This document shows, one piece after another, positions 4,966 through 28,017 of a stretch of DNA of 64,000 nucleotides (position 1 is the first letter of the stretch; the number at the start of each line of letters is the position of its first letter). The position numbers and the translations under genes are program-made. Below the pieces are notes generated by a model. The model had not been told where the DNA came from. It did no database searches and saw only the letters and a list, made by a program, of their open reading frames with translations. This stretch comes from Acidobacteriaceae bacterium (lineage in GTDB: Bacteria > Acidobacteriota > Terriglobia > Bryobacterales > Bryobacteraceae). The DNA lies in the NCBI GenBank assembly GCA_019244055.1, contig JAFATG010000271.1, forward strand, positions 1-64,000, in the 5' to 3' direction.

Positions 4966-7900
4966 TCATTTCCCGGCCGGCTTGTCCTCATTTACTTTCA
5001 GAACGATGAATGTTATGTCGTCATGCTGCGGCGCGTCAGCGATCCAGGCACGCAGCTCCTTCGAAATGGCGGCGGTGATTTCCGGCATCGGCAGATGCGC
5101 GACTCGGACGAGCAACTCCTTAAGCCGCAGCTCGCCAAACTCCTCTTCGGCGGGGTTCAGGGCTTCCGTCACACCATCCGTGAATGCCATCAAGACATCG
5201 CCTGGATAGAGATCGATAACAGACTCCTGATAACTGGCCGAGGGAAACATCCCGATAATCATGCCGCCGGTGGCCAGCTCTTCGATTTCGGCGACCGAGC
5301 CCTTCGAACCGGTGCTTTTCAGGTGTCGGAGTAGGTAGGGAGGATTATGGCCAGCATTGACGTACCGAAGCTGGCGACTTTGCTCGTCGACTTGCGCATA
5401 GAAGAAAGTTGCATAGCTGGAAGCGCCCGTGGAGCGGTGAAGGAAATGGTTCATTCTGGCAGCCAGCTCGGGCAGCGAGATGTTGCCTTCAGCGGCGAGA
5501 ATGCGCAACGAAGCCTGGACCACGGCCATGATCAGAGCGGCTGCGATTCCTTTGCCGGCAATATCGGCCAGTGCGATCCCGAGGCGGCGGTCTCCTACTT
5601 GCAGGAAATCGTAGTAGTCGCCACCAACGCCACGTGCGGCCAGGGTGAACGCATCGAGTGAGCTCCCGACCGTATGCGGAGATGTTTCGGGAAGAAGGCG
5701 CTTCTGCACTTCCGTAGCGAGCGCAATATCGCGGCGCACCTTCTCCTGCTCGAGCACGCGCTCGTTGAGGCGGGCGTTCTCCAGGGTAAGCGCGAACTGT
5801 TCGGCACATGCGGCCAGGAGATTTTTTTCGGTAGTACGGTAAGACTGGCGGGCCACCGGTTCACCAAACAGGAGCAGGCCGATCAGATCGTGCTTTGTGC
5901 GGAGGGGAACGGCGAGCCGCAGGCCAGTGGTTTGGAGCAGCTCGAGCTCGGGCACATGGCCCGGCCTTTGCTCGCGCGCCCAGCGCAAAGAAGTGTCCAG
6001 GTCAGCGGAGCTAAAAGACAGGGGAGTGCTATAGAACCTGAGCCGGTTCAAGAGGAAACCCGTTTCGGGAATTCGGAAGGTGGCCGGCGCGCCTCCAGGC
6101 GATGCGGCCATGCAGCGGTATTCGTTAGGCGATAGTTTTTCGAGCAGGAACGCCGAAGCCGCGGAGAGCTTACGGCGGAGATCTTCGAGAGACGTGTGAA
6201 GCACTTCCGCGAAGGAATCGGCGCGGCGGCTGGCTTCGATGAATTCCGTGAGCAAAGTGGACTCGAGGGCCGGACCAGGCTCTTCGCCCGAAATTCGTTC
6301 CCGAACTCTTTCAAGAACGCGCCGCGCAGCGGTCCAGATCGAATCCGTTTCGTTGCGAATCGCAATCATGGGCGAAAGAAGGCTGGCGCGCCAGCCGGGA
6401 ACGAATGAGGCGATGATGCCGAGCACGATTACGGCAGCGGTAGAGAACAGATAGGGAACGGGGCTGAGCTGATGAACGCTGAAGTAGCGAACGACGGCCG
6501 CCGAAGCTCCCGCCACAGCGAGAGCGCCAACGAGCAGGCCGAAAACCGTTAGCCGCAGCCCATCAGTTATGACGAGGCGAAGCAGATCGCGGCCGGTTGC
6601 GCCGAGAGCCATGCGCGTTCCCAGTTCCGTGGTGCGCTGGCGGACCGAGTAGGAGGTCAGGCCATAAACACCGAGACAGGCTAGCAGCAAAGCAGCGAGC
6701 GCGAACACGGTGACCACGATCGATTCGATCCGCTGAAATGTCAGAGAGTCGCCCAATATGTCAGGCAGAGAGCGGATAGAGTACACAGGCTGGTTCGGAT
6801 CGACTTGACTGATGGCGCGGCGGACGGCGGATGCCAGAGCGGTCTGCGGCAGCGTGGAGCGCACGACGAAGTGCATCGGATTGATGGGGACGAGATCTTT
6901 CAGCAGGTACATCTCGGGCAGCGGGTCTTCACCCAGACCTTCATTCCGCACGGTACCGACCACTCCCACGATCTGCGCTCGGGAACCATCGGAGCTGCCG
7001 AGGCGGGCAAATTGGCCAACTGCGTTTCGGCGTGGCCAGAAGCGCCTCGCGGCCGCTTCGTCGAGGACGACCGAGATGAGGTTTTCGTTCGTATCGTGCT
7101 TGTTTAGGAAGCGACCGGCGAGCAGAGGAATGCGCAGAGTCTTGAAATAGCTGGCGTTGACTATCATCAGACTGACCTGTTGCCTGAATTCGCCGGGGCG
7201 GGAACGGTCTCCGGGAAACAGCGAGGTGACGAAGCAGCAACCATCTAGTGGTAACTGGTTCGTGAGAGCGGCGCCGCTGACGCCAGGGATGGCTTCCAGA
7301 GACATGAGCAGTTTATCGGCGTAGCTGGACGAAGCCGCGGCATTTACTGTCCCCTGACCGGATCGAGTCAGCTCAAAAGTGAGAGTGCCATCAGGATCAA
7401 AGCCGGGCCAAGTCCGGTTGAGCCGGTTGAGTTGCCACACCAGCACGGCGCCGACCGAAATGAGAGTGAACGCGAGCGCGATTTCGGCGATCACCAGTGC
7501 GTGCGAGAGTTTCCGGCTGCGAACTCCGGCAGACGCGCGAACACCATCACTGAGCACCTCATTTGGCTGCGTGCGTAGAGCCTGCCAGAGCGGTGCGAGC
7601 GAGGAGAGGGTAGCGGTCAGAAAAGCCAAAGCCAGAGCAAAGAGCGCGACCGGCCAGTTAGTCGAAATCTCGTCGGAACGAGGGATGTAATCGGCAGCCA
7701 ATGAAACGACCACGCGAACAAGCACAATACTGGCAACGATTCCGGCTGCCAGGGCGGCGAGAGAAACCAAGAGGCTTTCGGAAAAATATTGCAGAGCTAA
7801 TTGCCTCTGGCCGCCACCTAAAGCAATGCGAATGGCCGTTTCCCTCGCGCGGCCGACGGATCTGCTGACGAGAAGACCGGCCACGTTGGCGCAGGTAATG

Positions 7901-8745
7901 AAGAGCAGGAGGCCTGCGGCGCCCAGCAGCAACAGCAGGATGGGGCGGATAGACTTAACGACGGCATCCTGAAGACTGAACAGCGCCGCTGTGTAAGTAG
8001 GATCATCCGGGTGATTCTGCTTGCGGAGTTGTGAAGCGACTCGTTTGGCCTCCGCTCGTGCTTGCTCGACCGTAACACCGGGTTTGAGCCTGGCATAAGC
8101 GGTATAGAACGCGTAATGACGAAGGGCGTCTTGATTGCGGGGGGTGTTGATGGGAAGCCAAACGTCGTTCTGGGAATTCTGACTCTCCACGGTGACGAGG
8201 GGAAGGCGGAACCAGGCCGGCATCGCTCCAAGGACCGTATAGGAACGGCCGCTTAGTGTAATGGCCCGCCCGATAATACCGGGGCCGAACTGCTGAAACA
8301 GACGATGCGAAATCAGTGCTACGTTTGGTCCATCGGAGTCGGTAAAGAAGCGGCCCGCGGCGGGACGTGCTCCAAGATTCGCGATTAGCGAAGGTGAGAC
8401 CTCTATCCCGGAGATGTGCTTTGGTTGGCCGGGGAAGGTGAGATTGAAATCGCCACCAACCGGAAACCAGCCGAAGACATCAAAAGTGTGCGTTTGTTGC
8501 TCGTAGGCGAGAAGGTCGGCGAAGCTGAGCCCGGAATTACGATCGGGATCGGAGGTAGTGCCGGCGAAGAGTTGGATCCAACGCTCCCCGTGCGAGTAGG
8601 GCAGAGGTCTCAGGAGCACGGTGTCTACCACGGTGAAAATCGCGGTAGCGCAACCGATCCCGATCGCGAGCGCGAGGATGGCAAGGAAAGCCACGCCTTT
8701 GTCGCGCTCCCAGGATCTCCAAGTACGCGAGAACAACGGAAGCAT
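4966..8745 (-). CDS. ADOP/MacB-FtsX-type permease fused to a GAF and SpoIIE/PP2C serine phosphatase region
   Basis: One uninterrupted 1259-aa ORF. The N-terminal ~800 aa is a two-unit MacB_PCD/FtsX permease (LTFPGQPKHISGIEVSPSLIANLGARPAAGRFF; ELGTRMALGATGRDLLRLV). The C-terminal ~460 aa has a GAF-like region and SpoIIE motifs (ATEVQKRLLP, GGDYYDF, IADIAGKGIAAALIMA, GHNPPYLL, FTDGVTEA, DDITFIVLKV). Confidence 0.92.
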   Translation of the reverse strand: MLPLFSRTWRSWERDKGVAFLAILALAIGIGCATAIFTVVDTVLLRPLPYSHGERWIQLFAGTTSDPDRNSGLSFADLLAYEQQTHTFDVFGWFPVGGDFNLTFPGQPKHISGIEVSPSLIANLGARPAAGRFFTDSDGPNVALISHRLFQQFGPGIIGRAITLSGRSYTVLGAMPAWFRLPLVTVESQNSQNDVWLPINTPRNQDALRHYAFYTAYARLKPGVTVEQARAEAKRVASQLRKQNHPDDPTYTAALFSLQDAVVKSIRPILLLLLGAAGLLLFITCANVAGLLVSRSVGRARETAIRIALGGGQRQLALQYFSESLLVSLAALAAGIVASIVLVRVVVSLAADYIPRSDEISTNWPVALFALALAFLTATLSSLAPLWQALRTQPNEVLSDGVRASAGVRSRKLSHALVIAEIALAFTLISVGAVLVWQLNRLNRTWPGFDPDGTLTFELTRSGQGTVNAAASSSYADKLLMSLEAIPGVSGAALTNQLPLDGCCFVTSLFPGDRSRPGEFRQQVSLMIVNASYFKTLRIPLLAGRFLNKHDTNENLISVVLDEAAARRFWPRRNAVGQFARLGSSDGSRAQIVGVVGTVRNEGLGEDPLPEMYLLKDLVPINPMHFVVRSTLPQTALASAVRRAISQVDPNQPVYSIRSLPDILGDSLTFQRIESIVVTVFALAALLLACLGVYGLTSYSVRQRTTELGTRMALGATGRDLLRLVITDGLRLTVFGLLVGALAVAGASAAVVRYFSVHQLSPVPYLFSTAAVIVLGIIASFVPGWRASLLSPMIAIRNETDSIWTAARRVLERVRERISGEEPGPALESTLLTEFIEASRRADSFAEVLHTSLEDLRRKLSAASAFLLEKLSPNEYRCMAASPGGAPATFRIPETGFLLNRLRFYSTPLSFSSADLDTSLRWAREQRPGHVPELELLQTTGLRLAVPLRTKHDLIGLLLFGEPVARQSYRTTEKNLLAACAEQFALTLENARLNERVLEQEKVRRDIALATEVQKRLLPETSPHTVGSSLDAFTLAARGVGGDYYDFLQVGDRRLGIALADIAGKGIAAALIMAVVQASLRILAAEGNISLPELAARMNHFLHRSTGASSYATFFYAQVDEQSRQLRYVNAGHNPPYLLRHLKSTGSKGSVAEIEELATGGMIIGMFPSASYQESVIDLYPGDVLMAFTDGVTEALNPAEEEFGELRLKELLVRVAHLPMPEITAAISKELRAWIADAPQHDDITFIVLKVNEDKPAGK

Positions 8746-8928: not shown

Positions 8929-10839
8929 ATGCCCAGAAATCTTACGATCCAGCACCCAACTCGCCGGCTGCCTCCACAACCGAATCTCGAGCAGCTCCGG
9001 AAACAGGCCAAGGATCTGCTGGAACAGTATTGCAGCGGCGAGCCGGCCGCAGTCAGGGAAGTAGAGCAGTTCGAGCGTGAGCCCGACCCTTCTGCCTTTG
9101 CCCTGAACGATGCGCAACGCGTACTCGCGCGGGCCTATGGTTTCGAGAGTTGGCCGAAGCTCAAGGCCTTCGTCGATGGAGTAAACGTCGCGACGCTCGC
9201 TGAGGCCGTCAACGGAGGCGACCTGGGGCGCGTGAGAGCTCTACTCCATGCCCGCCCCGATCTGATCGGCATGGATATGAGCGGCGGCGATGAACATCGC
9301 GCCTTGCACTACGCCGTGTTGCGCCGGGACGCAGCGATGGTTCGCCTGCTGATGGAAGCCGGTTCGGATGCGCGGAAAGGCATTTGGCCCCACCGCGATG
9401 CCACCTCGGCCTTGGCCATCGCCAGAGATCGCGAGTATCACGACATCATTGCTGCCATCGAGGAAGAGGAACGACTACGCCGCGAGGAGATGAGCTGTCC
9501 CAATGCGACGGTTTCGCCCGTACAGGATCAGATCGGCGCCGCAATCTCGCGCGGCGATGACGCAACCGCAATTCGGCTCCTGGAGGCGGACCGGTCTCTG
9601 ATTCAGGCTTGCGATCGCGACGGCGCGACCCCTCTACATCTTGCCGCGGAAGAAATGAACGAAGAGATGGTCGAGTGGCTGTTGAACCGGCGGGCGAGCG
9701 TAGGCAAACAGGATGCGCACGGGTGGACTGCTCTCGACCGGGCTGCACTCGCGGCTAATCCACGGGACGATTCAGCCAGACGATTTCCCGCCATTGCCAG
9801 GCTGTTGCTCGAACACGGCGCAGAGCTAACGATCTATGCGGCCGTCGCGCTGGGAAATGCTCGTCGTATTCGCGAGCTGGTGCTTGCCGATCCGGGCCTC
9901 CTGCGGACCACCGATTGGAGACGCGGTGGCTTGCTTACGCTTGCCGTAAATCACAAACGAATTGACATTGTCCGGCTACTACTCGATCTGGGGGCCGATG
10001 TTGATGAGCGCGTCCTGCTCGAGGAATTGGAAGAGCCTACCCTGAGCTGGGGCACGCCACTGTGGCACGCGGCGCTGACCGGGGATCGCGATATCACCGA
10101 GTTGCTGCTCGATCGCGGTGCAGACCCCAATGCCAATGTGTATGCGTCGGGTTGGCCGCTTCGGAATGCGTGGGGTCATAAGGACGATTCGGTCAAGCGG
10201 CTCTTGCTGGAGCGTGGCGCCAGGCCGCACCCCTACATGATCGCCGAGGCGCACGATGTCGACGGGGCCAGGCGTCTGCTCGGAACCGATACAACTGAGA
10301 ATCTGGCGTACGAGTTAACCTGGTCCGCTGCTGATCATGGGTGCCCGGCCATTGTCGAACTGGCGCTTCCGCGGCTTCAGTGGCCGGTTAGCGACCAAAA
10401 ATGGCATTGGATTCTGATCCAGCCGATCCGGGGTGCAATCGGTGATCACGGAAATAAGGACGGTCATTTCGCCGCCATGGCCGCTTTGCTGCAGCACGGA
10501 ATTGACCCAAACGTCTCGCGCTTTGGCCAAACCCCCCTGCATTTCGCAGCCGGATATCACGGCGGCGTGAGCGACGCGAATCGCGCGCGCTTTGCTTCCA
10601 TGCTGCTTGACTATGGAGCCAGGCTGGATCTCCGGGATGACATATTGAAATCGACACCTCTCGGCTGGGCTTGCCGCTGGGGAAGAAGCGAACTGGCCCA
10701 ATTGCTCATTGCGCGCGGCGCCCCAGCCGAGGAACCGGACGCCGAATCATGGGCAACACCCGAAGCGTGGGCTCGGAAAATGAAGCAGGATGCACTACTC
10801 CTGGTCTTGCGGGAAGCCAAGCAGAACAAGGGCTCGTGA
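8929..10839 (+). CDS. Ankyrin repeat protein
   Basis: 636 aa with many ankyrin units (DGATPLHLAAEEMNEEMVEWLLNRRASVGKQDAHGWTALDRAA, GQTPLHFAAGYHGG). SD-like GGAGA upstream of ATG. Confidence 0.92.
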   Translation: MPRNLTIQHPTRRLPPQPNLEQLRKQAKDLLEQYCSGEPAAVREVEQFEREPDPSAFALNDAQRVLARAYGFESWPKLKAFVDGVNVATLAEAVNGGDLGRVRALLHARPDLIGMDMSGGDEHRALHYAVLRRDAAMVRLLMEAGSDARKGIWPHRDATSALAIARDREYHDIIAAIEEEERLRREEMSCPNATVSPVQDQIGAAISRGDDATAIRLLEADRSLIQACDRDGATPLHLAAEEMNEEMVEWLLNRRASVGKQDAHGWTALDRAALAANPRDDSARRFPAIARLLLEHGAELTIYAAVALGNARRIRELVLADPGLLRTTDWRRGGLLTLAVNHKRIDIVRLLLDLGADVDERVLLEELEEPTLSWGTPLWHAALTGDRDITELLLDRGADPNANVYASGWPLRNAWGHKDDSVKRLLLERGARPHPYMIAEAHDVDGARRLLGTDTTENLAYELTWSAADHGCPAIVELALPRLQWPVSDQKWHWILIQPIRGAIGDHGNKDGHFAAMAALLQHGIDPNVSRFGQTPLHFAAGYHGGVSDANRARFASMLLDYGARLDLRDDILKSTPLGWACRWGRSELAQLLIARGAPAEEPDAESWATPEAWARKMKQDALLLVLREAKQNKGS

Positions 10840-21554: not shown

Positions 21555-21896
21555 ATGTCCGGCCAAGCCCAACTCCTCCCAGGAACGCTCGACCTGCTTA
21601 TTCTGAAAGCCGTGTCTCTCGGCCCCCTTCATGGCTACGGCATCCTCTTGCGTATCGGGCAAATCTCTGAGCAAGCACTGCTGATCGAGCAGGGCGCGCT
21701 CTATCCCGCTTTGTTCCGTCTGGTGCGTCAGGGTCTTCTCAAAGCAAGCTGGGGTACATCGGAAAACAATCGCCGCGCCAAGTTCTACGAGCTCACCTCT
21801 CTCGGGCGCAAGCGTCTGCGCGAGGAAACCGATGGGTGGAACCGCCTTGCTACAGCAATTGCTTCTGCCCTTGCCGCTCAGCCCGAGGAAATATGA
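21555..21896 (+). CDS. PadR family transcriptional regulator
   Basis: LLPGTLDLLILKAVSLGPLHGYGILLRI...LIEQGALYPALFRLVRQGLL...AKFYELTSLGRKRL; ATGA overlap with the permease gene. Confidence 0.93.
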   Translation: MSGQAQLLPGTLDLLILKAVSLGPLHGYGILLRIGQISEQALLIEQGALYPALFRLVRQGLLKASWGTSENNRRAKFYELTSLGRKRLREETDGWNRLATAIASALAAQPEEI

Positions 21897-24547
21897 AGCT
21901 CTTGGCCTATTTTCGTTCTGTTGCGGCTAAGTTTTTCCGGCCGTCCGAGATCGAAGGCGACATGGAGGAGGAGCTTCGCTCGCACATTCAGCACCGCGCA
22001 GATGATCTCGAACGCTCCGGGCTAGATCGTGCCGAAGCGGAACGCCGCGCGCGCATCGAGTTCGGCGGCCATGCGCGCTTCAAGGAGGAATCTCGCGAAG
22101 CGCTCGGCGGCAATTTTATCGAGACTCTTAGCCAGGATGTTCGCCTCGCCGTCCGCATGCTGCGCAAATCCCCCAGCTTCACCGTCGCTGCCGTTTTGAC
22201 GCTGGCCCTAGCGATCGGCGCAAACGCCGTGGTGTTTGGGGTCTTGAATGGGCTGATCCTGCGCCCGCTGAATGTGCCTCAGCCCGAAAGCCTCTGGGGA
22301 ATCGAGCGCGGGAGCGGTAAAGCCGTGAATCAGTCCTATCCCGACTATCTCGATTTGCGCGATCGCAACCGCAGCTTTGATGGTCTGGCAGCTTATAACG
22401 TAACTTCGGTGGGGCTGGACACGGGCAATAACCCATCCGGCTCGTGGATTCTGGAAACGACGGGGAACTACTTCGACGTGCTCAGGATTCAGCCATATCT
22501 TGGCCGCTTCTTTCACGCTTCCGATGAGCATGGCCCGAACAGCGCTCCCTATATCGTGCTCACCTACGCTTATTGGCAGGCGCATTTTCAGGATGATCGC
22601 GGTGTTGTGGGCCGTGTTGTCCGGTTGAACAAGCATCCTTTTACCATCCTCGGTGTGGCGCCGCCTGAGTTCCGAGGGAGTCTGTTGTTTGCGGTTCCCG
22701 ATTTCTGGGTGCCAATAGTGAACCAGGAGCAGGTGGAGGGATCGTATGTGCTGAACGCGCGCGGAAATCGCGGCATTTTGATGGTATTAGGGCATCTGAA
22801 GGCGGGAGTTACTCCGGCACAGGCTATTTCCGATCTGAACTCAATTGGCGCCTATTTGGAAAGGAACTACCCCAAAGACGATGGTCAAATGACGTTTTCC
22901 TTAGCGCGTCCAGGTCTTTCCGGCGACTGGTTAGGAGCTCCGATACGGGCATTCCTTACGGGATTGATGCTGCTGGCGGGGTTAATTCTCGTGGCGGCAT
23001 GTGCCAATCTCGGTAGCCTGTTTGCGGCACGCGCCGCCGACCGTTCCCGCGAAGTTGCTCTGCGCCTCGCGCTGGGATCGGGCCGCGTCCGCATTCTCCG
23101 GGGACTCTTTAGCGAAGCCGTGCTGATTTCACTCGCCGGAGGCGCTGCCGGGCTATGGGGCAGCGTAGCGCTATTGCACGGGCTGAGCGTGTGGCGGCCG
23201 CTTCCAACAGCCCCTCTCAACGTGGCGGTGAACCCAGACGCAAAGGTCTATGGAGTCGCTTTGCTGTTAAGTTTAGCGAGTGGATTCCTCTTCGGCGCAG
23301 TCCCAGTGAGACAGGTGCTTCACACGGATCCATATGAGATCGTCAAGTCGGGATCAAGAACTACCGGCGGCCGGCGGATTACAGCCCGAGACCTATTGCT
23401 TGTAGTGCAAATTGCGATCTGTGCGGTACTAGTCACTTCTTCGATGGTTGCGGTGCGTGGACTGGCACGCTCGCTCGATAGCAAATTCGGTTTTGAACCG
23501 CGGAATGCAACGCTCGTAGAAACAGCTCTGAACATGGCCGGTTACAGCGGAGACAGCGTGCCCGCAATGCAAAAGCGTATGATCGAGGCTTTGGGAAAAA
23601 TTCCCGGTGTAAAGTCTGTGGGATCAGTTGATAGGCCACCGCTGTATTACGGTGCGAACGGCTCGAATGTCTTTACCGACAACACAGCAGATCTGAGGCC
23701 CTCGAATGCCGCTGCGGAAGCGATGACCTACAACATATCTCCCGAATACCTCGAGGCGGCGGGCACAGCCTTGCTCGCTGGAAGGGCCTTCACCTGGCAT
23801 GACGATAAGAATGCGCCGCGGGTGGCAGTAATCAACCAGGAGTTTGCACGCAAAATCTTTGGCTCTGCAACCAACGCCGTGGGCAAATATTACAAGATGC
23901 CGGATGGAACGCGCATCCAAGTCGTGGGCATTGCGGAAGACGGAAAATATGAGCACCTCGCCGAAGATCCAGAGCCGGCGATGTTTCTACCGATACAGCA
24001 GTCGCCGTCGACTCAGACAGTCCTTGTATTACGCTCGGAGGGTGATCCGGAGCGACTGACGGCAGCGATCCACCGCACAATGCGGGACTTGGACGCGGGA
24101 CTGCCCTTTGATATCAGAACGTGGAGCCAAGAACTGGACTCAGCTCTACTTGGTCCGCGCATGGCGACGATTTCACTGGGGGTGCTGGGCGCGATGGGCG
24201 CGATGCTGTCCATCACAGGCATCTTTGGAATGGCGGCCTATTCGGTTAGCAAGCGCCTCAAGGAGTTGGGAATTCGGATGGCGCTCGGCGCGCAGCGGAA
24301 GGAAGTGCTACAGGCCGCGTTGGGCCGGGCATTGAAACTGCTGGCTTTTGGTTCGGCGGCGGGATTGATTCTCGGGATTCTGGCGAGCCGCGTGCTCGCT
24401 TTCATCGTGTATCAGGCAACCCCCCGCGATCCGCTGGTCTTGACCGGTGTCGTTCTGGCGATGGCATGCTTCGGACTGCTCGCTACCTGGATTCCTGCGC
24501 AACGCGCGCTGTCGCTTGAACCTTCAACATTGCTGCGAGAAGAGTGA
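21893..24547 (+). CDS. ADOP-type ABC permease (MacB_PCD/FtsX), copy 1
   Basis: N-terminal ADOP domain (DMEEELRSHIQHRADDLERSGLDRAEAERRARIEFGG) plus two MacB/FtsX halves. Start ATG 21893 overlaps the padR stop. Confidence 0.93.
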   Translation: MKLLAYFRSVAAKFFRPSEIEGDMEEELRSHIQHRADDLERSGLDRAEAERRARIEFGGHARFKEESREALGGNFIETLSQDVRLAVRMLRKSPSFTVAAVLTLALAIGANAVVFGVLNGLILRPLNVPQPESLWGIERGSGKAVNQSYPDYLDLRDRNRSFDGLAAYNVTSVGLDTGNNPSGSWILETTGNYFDVLRIQPYLGRFFHASDEHGPNSAPYIVLTYAYWQAHFQDDRGVVGRVVRLNKHPFTILGVAPPEFRGSLLFAVPDFWVPIVNQEQVEGSYVLNARGNRGILMVLGHLKAGVTPAQAISDLNSIGAYLERNYPKDDGQMTFSLARPGLSGDWLGAPIRAFLTGLMLLAGLILVAACANLGSLFAARAADRSREVALRLALGSGRVRILRGLFSEAVLISLAGGAAGLWGSVALLHGLSVWRPLPTAPLNVAVNPDAKVYGVALLLSLASGFLFGAVPVRQVLHTDPYEIVKSGSRTTGGRRITARDLLLVVQIAICAVLVTSSMVAVRGLARSLDSKFGFEPRNATLVETALNMAGYSGDSVPAMQKRMIEALGKIPGVKSVGSVDRPPLYYGANGSNVFTDNTADLRPSNAAAEAMTYNISPEYLEAAGTALLAGRAFTWHDDKNAPRVAVINQEFARKIFGSATNAVGKYYKMPDGTRIQVVGIAEDGKYEHLAEDPEPAMFLPIQQSPSTQTVLVLRSEGDPERLTAAIHRTMRDLDAGLPFDIRTWSQELDSALLGPRMATISLGVLGAMGAMLSITGIFGMAAYSVSKRLKELGIRMALGAQRKEVLQAALGRALKLLAFGSAAGLILGILASRVLAFIVYQATPRDPLVLTGVVLAMACFGLLATWIPAQRALSLEPSTLLREE

Positions 24548-24628: not shown

Positions 24629-24780
24629 GTGGGCAAAACTATTCGGCTCTTGCTATTGTTTGAGGGCATCGCCTTCATCGCCGCGAGCCTGACCCACTTC
24701 GGCGTGCTGATGCATGGATATGAGCACCGGCCGGCCGGGATGGCGGAGAGCATTATTGGGGTCATCCTTCTGATCGGTTT
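24629..24780 (+). pseudogene. Fragment of a small membrane protein gene
   Basis: RLLLLFEGIAFIAASLTHFGVLMHGYEHRPAGMAESIIGVILLIGF looks like a genuine membrane protein N-terminus. It then runs into antisense SpoIIE sequence. Confidence 0.5.
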
Positions 24781-25225
24781 CCAAATTCCAGGCCATCCGG
24801 ACTGGTTGCCTCCACCAGCCCATCGGTGTAGATAAGAGACGGTCGCCGGCTTCGAGCGAAGACTCCCCTTCGGGATAGGCCTGATTCGACTGCACACCAA
24901 GAAGGAGACCACCCTCACAGGATGGCAATAACCGTTGCGTTGCTTTCCGCCAGAGTACTGGCAGTGGGTGGCCTGCGGCGGAGTAACGCACTACTCGGCT
25001 TGCGTCGTCAAGATACGCGTAGACCGCTGTTGCGTACTGCTCCTTTGTTTGGCCACGAAGGATGGAATTTAAGGCCGCAATCACTTTGTTTGGCTGGTCC
25101 AGGTTGCTGCTATTGGAAGAGATTGCCACTTTCAGCATCGATGCGACAAGCGCTGAAGGCACACCATACCCAGTGACGTCAGCGATGCACTTCCGGTTGG
25201 TGGGATTCGACCGAAAATGAATTCT
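24775..25225 (-). pseudogene. Truncated, frameshifted SpoIIE/PP2C phosphatase fragment
   Basis: Minus strand encodes IADVTGYGVPSALVASMLKVA...YATAVYAYLDDASRVVRYSAAGHPLPVLW...LEAGDRLL. YTDGLVEATSPDGLEFG then continues in a different frame. Confidence 0.85.
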
Positions 25226-25279: not shown

Positions 25280-25315
25280 ATGTCCGGGCAAATCGAGCAA
25301 CCGGAGGAATTATGA
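25280..25315 (+). pseudogene. padR remnant: 11-codon ORF MSGQIEQPEEL overlapping the permease start
   Basis: ATG TCC GGG CAA ATC GAG CAA CCG GAG GAA TTA TGA; keeps the first codons (MSGQ) and the final PEE + ATGA overlap of the upstream padR. Confidence 0.75.
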
Positions 25316-28017
25316 AGCTCCCGGCCTATTTTCGTTCTCTTGCTAGTAAGTTTCTCCACGCTTCCGATCTCGATCACGATATGGAGGAGGAGCTTTGCTC
25401 CCATATCCAGCACCGCGCCGACGATCTCGAACGCTCCGGCCTGGACCGTGGAGAGGCACAACGCCGTGCGCGCATCGAATTCGGGGGCCATGTGCGCTTC
25501 AAAGAGGAATCCCGCGAAGCGCTCGGCGGCCACTTTATAGAAACTCTGATGCAGGATATGCGTTTCAGCGTGCGGGTGCTGCGCAAATCGCCCGGATTCA
25601 CAACCACGGCGGTGATTACGTTGACACTGGCAATCGGGGCAAATGCAGTCGTTTTCGGTGTATTGAACGGGCTGATCCTCCGCCCATTGAACCTGCCTCA
25701 CCCCGAGAGCTTGTACGGGATCGAGCGCTCGGACGACGACGATCCAGTGCAATCGTATCCGGATTACCTCGATCTTCGCGATCGAAATCGCAGCTTCGAG
25801 AGTCTGGCAGCGTATCGAATCATCGAAGCTGGGCTGGATGCGGGCAACAACGCCTCGAGGGTCTTCGGCTATGAAGTGAGCGGCAACTACTTCGATACAC
25901 TGGGCGTTCAGCCGTATCTTGGCCGCTTTTTCCACGCCTCGGATGAACATGGCCCGAACAGCGCTCCCTACATCGTGCTCTCGCATGCGTATTGGCACGC
26001 CCATTTTCAGGATGACCGTGGAGTTGTGGGCCGAGTTGTTCTGCTCAATAGGCATCCGTTCACGATCGTAGGCGTCGCCCCGGCTGGATTCCATGGAACT
26101 TTATTGTTTGCCTTTCCCGACTTCTTCTTGCCAATGGTGAACGAGGAGCAGGTGGAGGGAACAAACGTCCTGAACGCGCGCGGAATTAAGTGGATTTATC
26201 TGGCGTTGGGACATCTCAAAGCGGGCGTCACCCCCGCGCAGGCCACTGCCGATCTGAACTCGATTGCGTCCTACTTTCAGAAGACCTATCCGAAAGAGCA
26301 TGGAAAAATGAGCTACTCGTTGTCCCGCCCCAGCCTGTATGGCGATTTCCTTGGCCGTCGCGTACAGATGTTTCTTGCGGGATTGATGTTGCTCGCGGGA
26401 TTGATTCTGCTGGCGGCGTGCGCCAACCTAGGCAGCCTGTTTGCCGCGCGCGCGTCTGATCGAACGCGCGAAGTTGCTTTGCGGCTCGCGCTCGGAGCGA
26501 AACGCTCGCGCATTCTGCGTACGCTATTCACCGAAGCTGCGCTGATCTCCCTGGCTGGAGGCGCCCTCGGGTTATGGGGCAGCGTAGCGCTGTTGCGCGG
26601 CTTGAGTTTTTGGCAGCCGCTACCTCGATATCCGATATCTGTGCCCGTGAACCCGGACGCAAACGTGTATGGCGCGGCTTTGATATTGGCCCTGGTGAGT
26701 GGAATCCTATTCGGGATGGTTCCAGTTCGTCAGGTGCTCAGGACCGATCCATACGAGGTCGTCAAAGCGGGATCGACGGCGACGGTGAGCCGGCGGATTA
26801 CGGTGCGCGACCTGTTGCTGGTGGTCCAAATTGCGATCTGTGGAGTGCTGGTTACGTCATCGATGGTTGCGGTGCGAGGTCTGGTCCGTTCGCTGCACAG
26901 CAATTTGGGTTTCGATCCACGGAACGTGATGATCGTCAACACCGATCTCAGCATGGCGGGCTATAGCGGAGAAAGAGTACAGCAAATGCAAAAGCGAATG
27001 CTGGATGCGATGCGGAGAATTCCTGGTGTAGAATCCGTCGGATTGATCGACTGGCCACCACTTATTAGCGGCGCTTACGACCAATCTGAGGTCTTTACAG
27101 ACCAGGCCATCGGTCTAAGCCCAGCCGATGCCGCGGCTTCACCCTTCTCGTTTCGAATCTCACCGGAATACTTCCAGGCGGCGGGCACAGCGTTGCTAGC
27201 CGGCAGGACGTTCTCGTGGCATGACGACAAGAATGCGCCGCGCGTGGCCGTTGTAAATCGGGAATTTGCAATGAAAGTGTTCGGGTCGGCGGCAAGCGCG
27301 CTGGGTCATTTCTACAAGCTGCACGATGGAACGCGCATCCAGGTGGTGGGCATCGTGGAAAGCGGCAAATATAAGGGACTCACCGACGATGCAGCGCCGG
27401 CGATGTTTCTTCCCATTCTGCAATCGCCAACGCTGGCGACAAATCTGGTAGTCCGCTACTTTACTGAACCGCGCACAATGGCCGCCAGTCGGCCTGCGCG
27501 CTTCAATCGCGATCCCCGGCAACTGGCGGGAGCCATAAAGAATACATTGCGGGATCTCGATCGCGGGCTCCCTTCTTACATCCAAACGTGGAGCCAACAA
27601 CTGGACGACTTCGCGTTGTTTCCTTCGCATGTAGCGACGGTATCGCTGGGTGTGCTGGGCATGATGGGCGCTATGCTCTCGATCACCGGCATCTTCGGAA
27701 TGGCGGCGTACTCAGTGAGCAGGCGGTTGAAGGAGTTGGGAATTCGTATAGCCCTCGGCGCGCAGCATAAGGAAGTGTTACAGGCAGCGTTGGGGCGGGC
27801 TTTGAAATTGCTCGCTTTTGGTTCTGCGGCTGGTTTGATTCTAGGAATTCTGGCGAGTCGGGTGCTCGCTCATATCGTGTATCAGGCTACGCCACGCGAT
27901 CCGTTGGTATTGGCGGGAGTTGTTGTCGCTATGGCCTCTCTGGGGCTGGTCGCGACTTGGATTCCAGCGCAACGCGCGCTCTCGCTTGATGCTTCCACAC
28001 TGCTGCGCCAGGAGTGA
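25312..28017 (+). CDS. ADOP-type ABC permease (MacB_PCD/FtsX), copy 2
   Basis: 901 aa, clearly paralogous to the 21893..24547 product along its length. Confidence 0.93.
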   Translation: MKLPAYFRSLASKFLHASDLDHDMEEELCSHIQHRADDLERSGLDRGEAQRRARIEFGGHVRFKEESREALGGHFIETLMQDMRFSVRVLRKSPGFTTTAVITLTLAIGANAVVFGVLNGLILRPLNLPHPESLYGIERSDDDDPVQSYPDYLDLRDRNRSFESLAAYRIIEAGLDAGNNASRVFGYEVSGNYFDTLGVQPYLGRFFHASDEHGPNSAPYIVLSHAYWHAHFQDDRGVVGRVVLLNRHPFTIVGVAPAGFHGTLLFAFPDFFLPMVNEEQVEGTNVLNARGIKWIYLALGHLKAGVTPAQATADLNSIASYFQKTYPKEHGKMSYSLSRPSLYGDFLGRRVQMFLAGLMLLAGLILLAACANLGSLFAARASDRTREVALRLALGAKRSRILRTLFTEAALISLAGGALGLWGSVALLRGLSFWQPLPRYPISVPVNPDANVYGAALILALVSGILFGMVPVRQVLRTDPYEVVKAGSTATVSRRITVRDLLLVVQIAICGVLVTSSMVAVRGLVRSLHSNLGFDPRNVMIVNTDLSMAGYSGERVQQMQKRMLDAMRRIPGVESVGLIDWPPLISGAYDQSEVFTDQAIGLSPADAAASPFSFRISPEYFQAAGTALLAGRTFSWHDDKNAPRVAVVNREFAMKVFGSAASALGHFYKLHDGTRIQVVGIVESGKYKGLTDDAAPAMFLPILQSPTLATNLVVRYFTEPRTMAASRPARFNRDPRQLAGAIKNTLRDLDRGLPSYIQTWSQQLDDFALFPSHVATVSLGVLGMMGAMLSITGIFGMAAYSVSRRLKELGIRIALGAQHKEVLQAALGRALKLLAFGSAAGLILGILASRVLAHIVYQATPRDPLVLAGVVVAMASLGLVATWIPAQRALSLDASTLLRQE

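Follow-up and report, generated by a model that had tools for sequence, protein, structure and literature searches.

The reading frame analysed here joins an acidobacterial duplicated orphan permease (ADOP), a transporter-like membrane protein with no ATPase beside it, to a cytoplasmic phosphatase. The gene lies on the reverse strand of the window, by which the whole stretch of 64,000 nucleotides that was analysed is meant. In the Acidobacteriota, ADOPs form a very large family of paralogues, with tens of copies per genome.

The open reading frame at 4966-8745 runs uninterrupted from its ATG to its stop codon and encodes 1259 amino acids. Residues 8-799 were matched by the NCBIfam model TIGR03434 (ADOP family duplicated permease) with 681.9 bits against a cut-off of 622.3, and two stretches each of MacB_PCD and FtsX were found by Pfam, the structure model likewise containing two permease units. 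Towards the C-terminus, PF07228 (SpoIIE) matched residues 1052-1251 with 162 bits (gathering score 25), while the match of PF01590 (GAF) to residues 847-988 was marginal, at 22.9 bits against a cut-off of 22.4. The initial annotation had described a permease and a GAF-SpoIIE/PP2C phosphatase in one reading frame, with a boundary near nt 6350; these matches agree with it in coordinates and strand, and residue 799 ends at nt 6349. By its full-length TIGR03434 match and its two FtsX/MacB_PCD units, the fused protein is a member of the ADOP family. The following features could be assigned:

4966-8745, reverse strand: complete ADOP-GAF-SpoIIE fusion gene, 1259 aa, with homologues of the same architecture.
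6349-8724, reverse strand: ADOP duplicated permease, residues 8-799 (TIGR03434, 681.9 bits; structure model; Foldseek).
7798-7851, reverse strand: first coupling-helix segment, residues 299-316, RARETAIRIALGGGQRQL (invariant residues; aligns with the TM2-TM3 region of MacB).
6586-6636, reverse strand: second coupling-helix segment, residues 704-720, RTTELGTRMALGATGRD (invariant residues; matches MacB 'RT.EIG.RMA.GA').
6208-6348, reverse strand: helical linker of variable sequence, residues 800-846, which connects the permease's C-terminal (minor coupling) helix with the GAF domain (24-fusion alignment; low-confidence helices in the models).
5782-6207, reverse strand: GAF domain, residues 847-988 (PF01590; alpha/beta fold in the model, pLDDT mostly above 80).
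5695-5835, reverse strand: signalling helix of 47 residues, 971-1017, linking GAF to PP2C (invariant residues; model).
4993-5592, reverse strand: SpoIIE/PP2C phosphatase, Pfam match to residues 1052-1251 (PF07228; invariant aspartates; Foldseek). The PP2C fold starts near residue 1028, at nt 5664.

Homologues were searched for with the C-terminal part, in relatives, then in 201 genomes of the family and then in 350 of the class. The retrieved loci contained 26 further fused frames, full or near-full in length (1122-1451 aa), from 23 other genomes; the fusion is present in 24 genomes including the source genome, at 32-66% identity to the query. Most hosts belong to one Bryobacterales-type family and one (G242) to another family of the class, with a 1317-aa fusion (L118) that is 32% identical to the query. 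Where hosts are named, they are MAGs from soil and peat that carry the labels Bryobacterales, Bryobacteraceae, Solibacteraceae, Acidobacteriaceae or Terriglobia. G269 possibly has a further fusion, represented by a fragment at a contig edge (L119). The distribution is patchy, with a close match in 25 of the 201 family genomes, and the source genome itself (an assembly of 6.2 Mb in 372 contigs, with 3.8% contamination) has 18 SpoIIE matches, the one in 4966-8745 being fused to an ADOP. That the fusion might be unique to this assembly, as the initial annotation had allowed for, is contradicted by this architecture search; because it recurs in many independent assemblies, a chimeric contig is untenable and was ruled out. 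Long match spans in Ignavibacteria and Calditrichota, considered as possible permease-SpoIIE fusions, proved to be tandem SpoIIE genes. The main alignment consists of 24 sequences, the query and 23 fusions, two truncated frames (L050 and L063) and the distant L118 being left out.

For residues 1-850, an AlphaFold2 model (m184ecd9eb6b4; pLDDT 78.6, pTM 0.71) shows two units, each of four transmembrane helices and a MacB-like periplasmic core. As the eight helices follow the order of MacB, both ends of the ADOP part are predicted to be cytoplasmic. The best Foldseek matches of the model were YbbP (1.4e-19, full-length alignment) and MacB (2.2e-14), followed by LolCDE and BceAB(S), and MacB was also recovered at 8e-32 in a profile search of PDB sequences (hmmsearch). 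The permease part is predicted on these grounds to have the MacB permease fold. In MacB the permease chain ends on the cytoplasmic side, with the minor coupling helix as its last element (PMC5985334), and by this topology the phosphatase would hang from the minor coupling helix of the ADOP part. The best-conserved permease segments of the 24-fusion alignment are the two coupling-helix regions, with R299, R306, A308 and G310 invariant in the first and R704, E707, G709, R711, A713 and G715 in the second; the least conserved stretch is the linker. For close pairs with measurable dS, dN/dS was about 0.06-0.4 in every domain, both periplasmic cores included. All parts of the fused gene are under purifying selection.

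The model of residues 675-1259 (pLDDT 78.6) contains a GAF-like fold, the 47-residue helix and a PP2C fold, their relative placement being unsure at a pTM of 0.49. Clear GAF_2 matches were obtained in the unfused relatives L127 and L133. Invariant residues of the helix in the 24 fusions are R996, E999, E1001, A1010, E1012, V1013, Q1014, R1016 and L1017. The PP2C model is closest to RssB, SpoIIE, SiaA and the RsbU domain of Rv1364c (Foldseek). The best-conserved phosphatase segments carry D1043, D1061, D1190 and D1243, all invariant in the 24 fusions, which we take by homology to be the metal-binding aspartates. By its PF07228 match and these aspartates the enzyme is classified as a SpoIIE/RsbU-type PP2C phosphatase, and its metal site appears to be intact and the phosphatase catalytically complete, as judged from the sequence.

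A motif scan found no ABC ATPase gene adjacent to the fused gene in the window or at 31 other loci; the single ABC-ATPase-like ORF in all flanks lies about 4 kb from its fused gene, at one of 32 loci. Pfam found no ATPase domain in the fused protein and none recurs in the scanned flanks, so that the nucleotide-binding domain which an ABC transporter requires, fused or as a partner, did not turn up in these searches. The lack of an ABC ATPase beside the gene had been pointed out earlier and is borne out by both searches, but its value as a mark of a special change is not. The ADOP family (TIGR03434) is defined by the lack of an adjacent ATPase, and ADOPs are not known to have partners as a family. 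Being the norm among ADOPs, the missing ATPase supports membership of the family and does not point to a special change in the fused protein.

The source genome contains at least 70 ADOPs: 67 that were listed, two more in the window and the fused one. All 67 listed ADOPs score higher (785-1007 bits) than the fused one (682 bits), and none of them lies in an open frame of more than 991 aa. The two ordinary ADOPs of the window, at 21836-24547 and 25312-28017 on the forward strand, reach 765 and 742 bits and both carry an N-terminal 'permease prefix domain 1' that the fused ADOP does not have. Between their genes, at 24653-25186 on the reverse strand, lies a truncated SpoIIE fragment covering PF07228 positions 9-127 only, with the frame broken afterwards; it is most like another phosphatase of the source genome (L010), not the fused one. 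An ankyrin-repeat protein is encoded at 8929-10839 on the forward strand, divergent from the fused gene.

No conserved operon partner of the fused gene was found, its neighbours differing from locus to locus; those checked were metabolic genes (alcohol dehydrogenase, prolyl oligopeptidase, GCV_T, mandelate racemase) and one PadR regulator. Since the neighbours are not conserved and no ATPase recurs among them, the fused protein looks self-contained. A search for RsbV and RsbW genes elsewhere in the source genome, proposed in the initial annotation, returned one adjacent pair on contig C51, an RsbW-like gene (C51:16090-16461) and a STAS/RsbV-like gene (C51:15712-16020), which are candidate partners only.

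On the phosphatase tree, the fused phosphatases form one group (support 91), and fused and linked phosphatases group together with a support of 93. Nearest to the fused group are unfused 2TM-GAF-SpoIIE genes of other Acidobacteriota (L133, L127, L232 and L149), the best unfused relatives being about 555-584 aa long with two TM helices, a GAF and a SpoIIE domain. In L133, L127 (Pyrinomonadaceae) and L232 (G493) the phosphatase gene follows immediately after an ADOP gene of the same orientation, with frame gaps of 37, 0 and -20 nt, respectively; L149 has no ADOP nearby. Among the 105 unfused SpoIIE ORFs whose upstream sequence was long enough, an ADOP stands directly in front of three of these four nearest relatives versus none of the 101 others. 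The corresponding Fisher p of 2e-5 is post hoc, as the tree was seen first, and applies to sequences that share ancestry and to a scan ranking that favoured loci with both genes; the adjacency counts for a link to ADOPs as supportive evidence only. Orthology of the ADOPs beside the unfused phosphatases was considered but is not supported, the distal ADOP of L232, and not its adjacent one, grouping with that of L133. In the first ADOP tree, L118 and L091 fell outside the main fused group; several independent origins of the fusion were not retained as an explanation, holding all fused rows together giving the better likelihood (p-AU 0.669). The most economical interpretation has this phosphatase lineage working with ADOPs, the 2-TM anchor having been replaced by an ADOP through fusion in Terriglobia. 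Another SpoIIE type, of about 860-960 aa, is widespread at many loci in Acidobacteriota, and two of its members (L233 and L234) have an N-terminal part resembling PDZ and several TM helices before a GAF-like part.

The fused protein is probably, though far from certainly, a single-chain membrane receptor-phosphatase in which the periplasmic state of the ADOP sets the activity of the PP2C domain. We infer the following mechanism. The two periplasmic core domains would bind or mechanically register the state of the envelope, in the form of a ligand, a lipid, a peptide or a partner protein. The bundle of eight TM helices would open or zip as in MacB, without an ATPase of its own and in reverse, from outside to inside, and the movement would reach the C-terminal minor coupling helix, which carries the linker, GAF and PP2C. 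Linker and 47-residue helix would control the pairing of two PP2C domains and their recruitment of metal, a mode of activation described for RsbU, and a cytoplasmic ligand may provide a further input through the GAF domain. An active phosphatase would dephosphorylate an RsbV-like STAS anti-anti-sigma protein, by which a sigma factor or other target would be released. The periplasmic and transmembrane steps are thus modelled on MacB mechanotransmission run backwards. The pairing step would follow work on RsbU, where helical linkers order and dimerise the phosphatase, as has been proposed generally for GAF, PAS and receiver inputs (PMC12143880). As one ADOP chain is a pseudo-dimer with one phosphatase, RsbU-like pairing would need two ADOP chains. 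The receptor-phosphatase reading of the initial annotation agrees with the conservation, the topology, the models of the structure and the occurrence of the pair as two genes in relatives. Its further suggestion, that a mechanotransmission-type permease acts as the sensor, holds less firmly: the coupling-helix motif, through which MacB touches its ATPase, has remained among the best-conserved parts, and an ATPase in trans or a role as passive anchor may apply instead.

These preserved motifs would also fit a cryptic ATPase partner. If the protein worked as an ABC complex driven by ATP, an independent ATPase of the LolD/MacB type would dock in trans and the phosphatase would report transport flux, as BceAB does to BceS. 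We regard this as unlikely, since no ATPase gene recurs beside the fused genes and ADOPs are not known to have partners as a family, but the coupling helices of both halves rank with the best-conserved ADOP segments and match those of MacB. Moreover, YbbP and BceB, both structural matches here, belong to the fused duplicated permeases, which always work with a separate ATPase, and BceAB signals to a kinase (PMC5985334).

It is distinctly unlikely that the ADOP part merely anchors or localises the protein, with the GAF domain as the real sensor. The unfused relatives do carry the same GAF-SpoIIE module behind nothing more than a 2-TM anchor, and the module therefore exists without an attached ADOP, but some 800 aa including both periplasmic cores are kept by purifying selection, and a plain anchor would not explain the ADOP gene retained in front of three of the four nearest unfused relatives. 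That the phosphatase controls the ADOP from inside to outside, as FtsE controls FtsX, is very improbable: a cytoplasmic part drives the periplasmic one in MacB and FtsEX (PMC5985334, and published work on FtsEX), but SpoIIE-type phosphatases are normally the outputs of N-terminal sensor domains (PMC12143880), and the domain order here is identical.

Split and decaying copies were also observed. In G012 (L055 position 7402, also L129) an in-frame TGA is located exactly at the permease-phosphatase junction, within the linker, and both halves are otherwise intact (ADOP 797 aa, GAF-SpoIIE part 420-426 aa). As G012 falls inside the fused group on both the ADOP and the phosphatase tree, its split is probably secondary, and given this split the covalent linkage is perhaps not always required. 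In G025 (L054 7198-10210) the second permease half has been lost and the phosphatase carries a frameshift; this copy is probably decaying. Despite the stop at the junction in G012 and the contig number and contamination of the source assembly, the probability that the fusion stems from faulty assembly or sequencing, or from chance read-through between adjacent genes, is negligible, given the identical join in many independent genomes and the nested position of G012.

The receptor-phosphatase reading can be compared with known systems. With the ADOP family the protein shares the whole 800-aa duplicated permease and the lack of an ATPase beside it, but it differs in its C-terminal GAF-SpoIIE part and its lower score than the 67 listed ADOPs of the source genome. 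RsbU, RsbP, RsbZ and other sensor-SpoIIE PP2C proteins have the same GAF, helical linker and PP2C with intact metal site, whereas the sensor here is membrane-embedded, a duplicated permease of ABC type; PAS, GAF, receiver, HAMP and the RsbU N-terminal domain are the named inputs of RsbU-type phosphatases (PMC12143880). SLC5-STAC histidine kinases (CbrA and CrbS, 'transceptors') likewise unite a transporter with a signalling enzyme in a single polypeptide (PMC13022988), with an SLC5 symporter and a histidine kinase in place of permease and phosphatase. In BceAB-BceS a MacB-fold (type VII) permease is likewise coupled to a cytoplasmic signalling enzyme (PMC5985334), but as separate proteins, with a requirement for the active ATPase BceA, a histidine kinase output and one periplasmic domain. 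YbbP (YbbAP-TesA), the closest full-length fold match, is also a duplicated MacB-type permease with two periplasmic domains, but has two extra linking TM helices (PMC5985334), the cognate ATPase YbbA and no signalling domain. The fused protein may be likened to a transceptor such as CbrA, or to BceAB-BceS condensed into one chain with a phosphatase output. In the openly accessible literature, searches on ADOP and on SpoIIE-FtsX fusions returned no paper describing such a protein.

ADOPs in general might be ATP-independent envelope receptors and not transporters, with the ADOP-SpoIIE proteins, fused or as operon neighbours, being those that reveal their cytoplasmic output at the sequence level; this extension is offered tentatively and we hold it to be rather doubtful. 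Through the conserved fusion to a phosphatase, ADOPs become accessible to a readout, as phosphatase activity could be followed against periplasmic ligands or domain swaps. If the receptor reading is true, an ABC-type permease would join the sensor modules that control RsbU-type phosphatases, and the fused protein would be a phosphatase counterpart to the CbrA transceptors.
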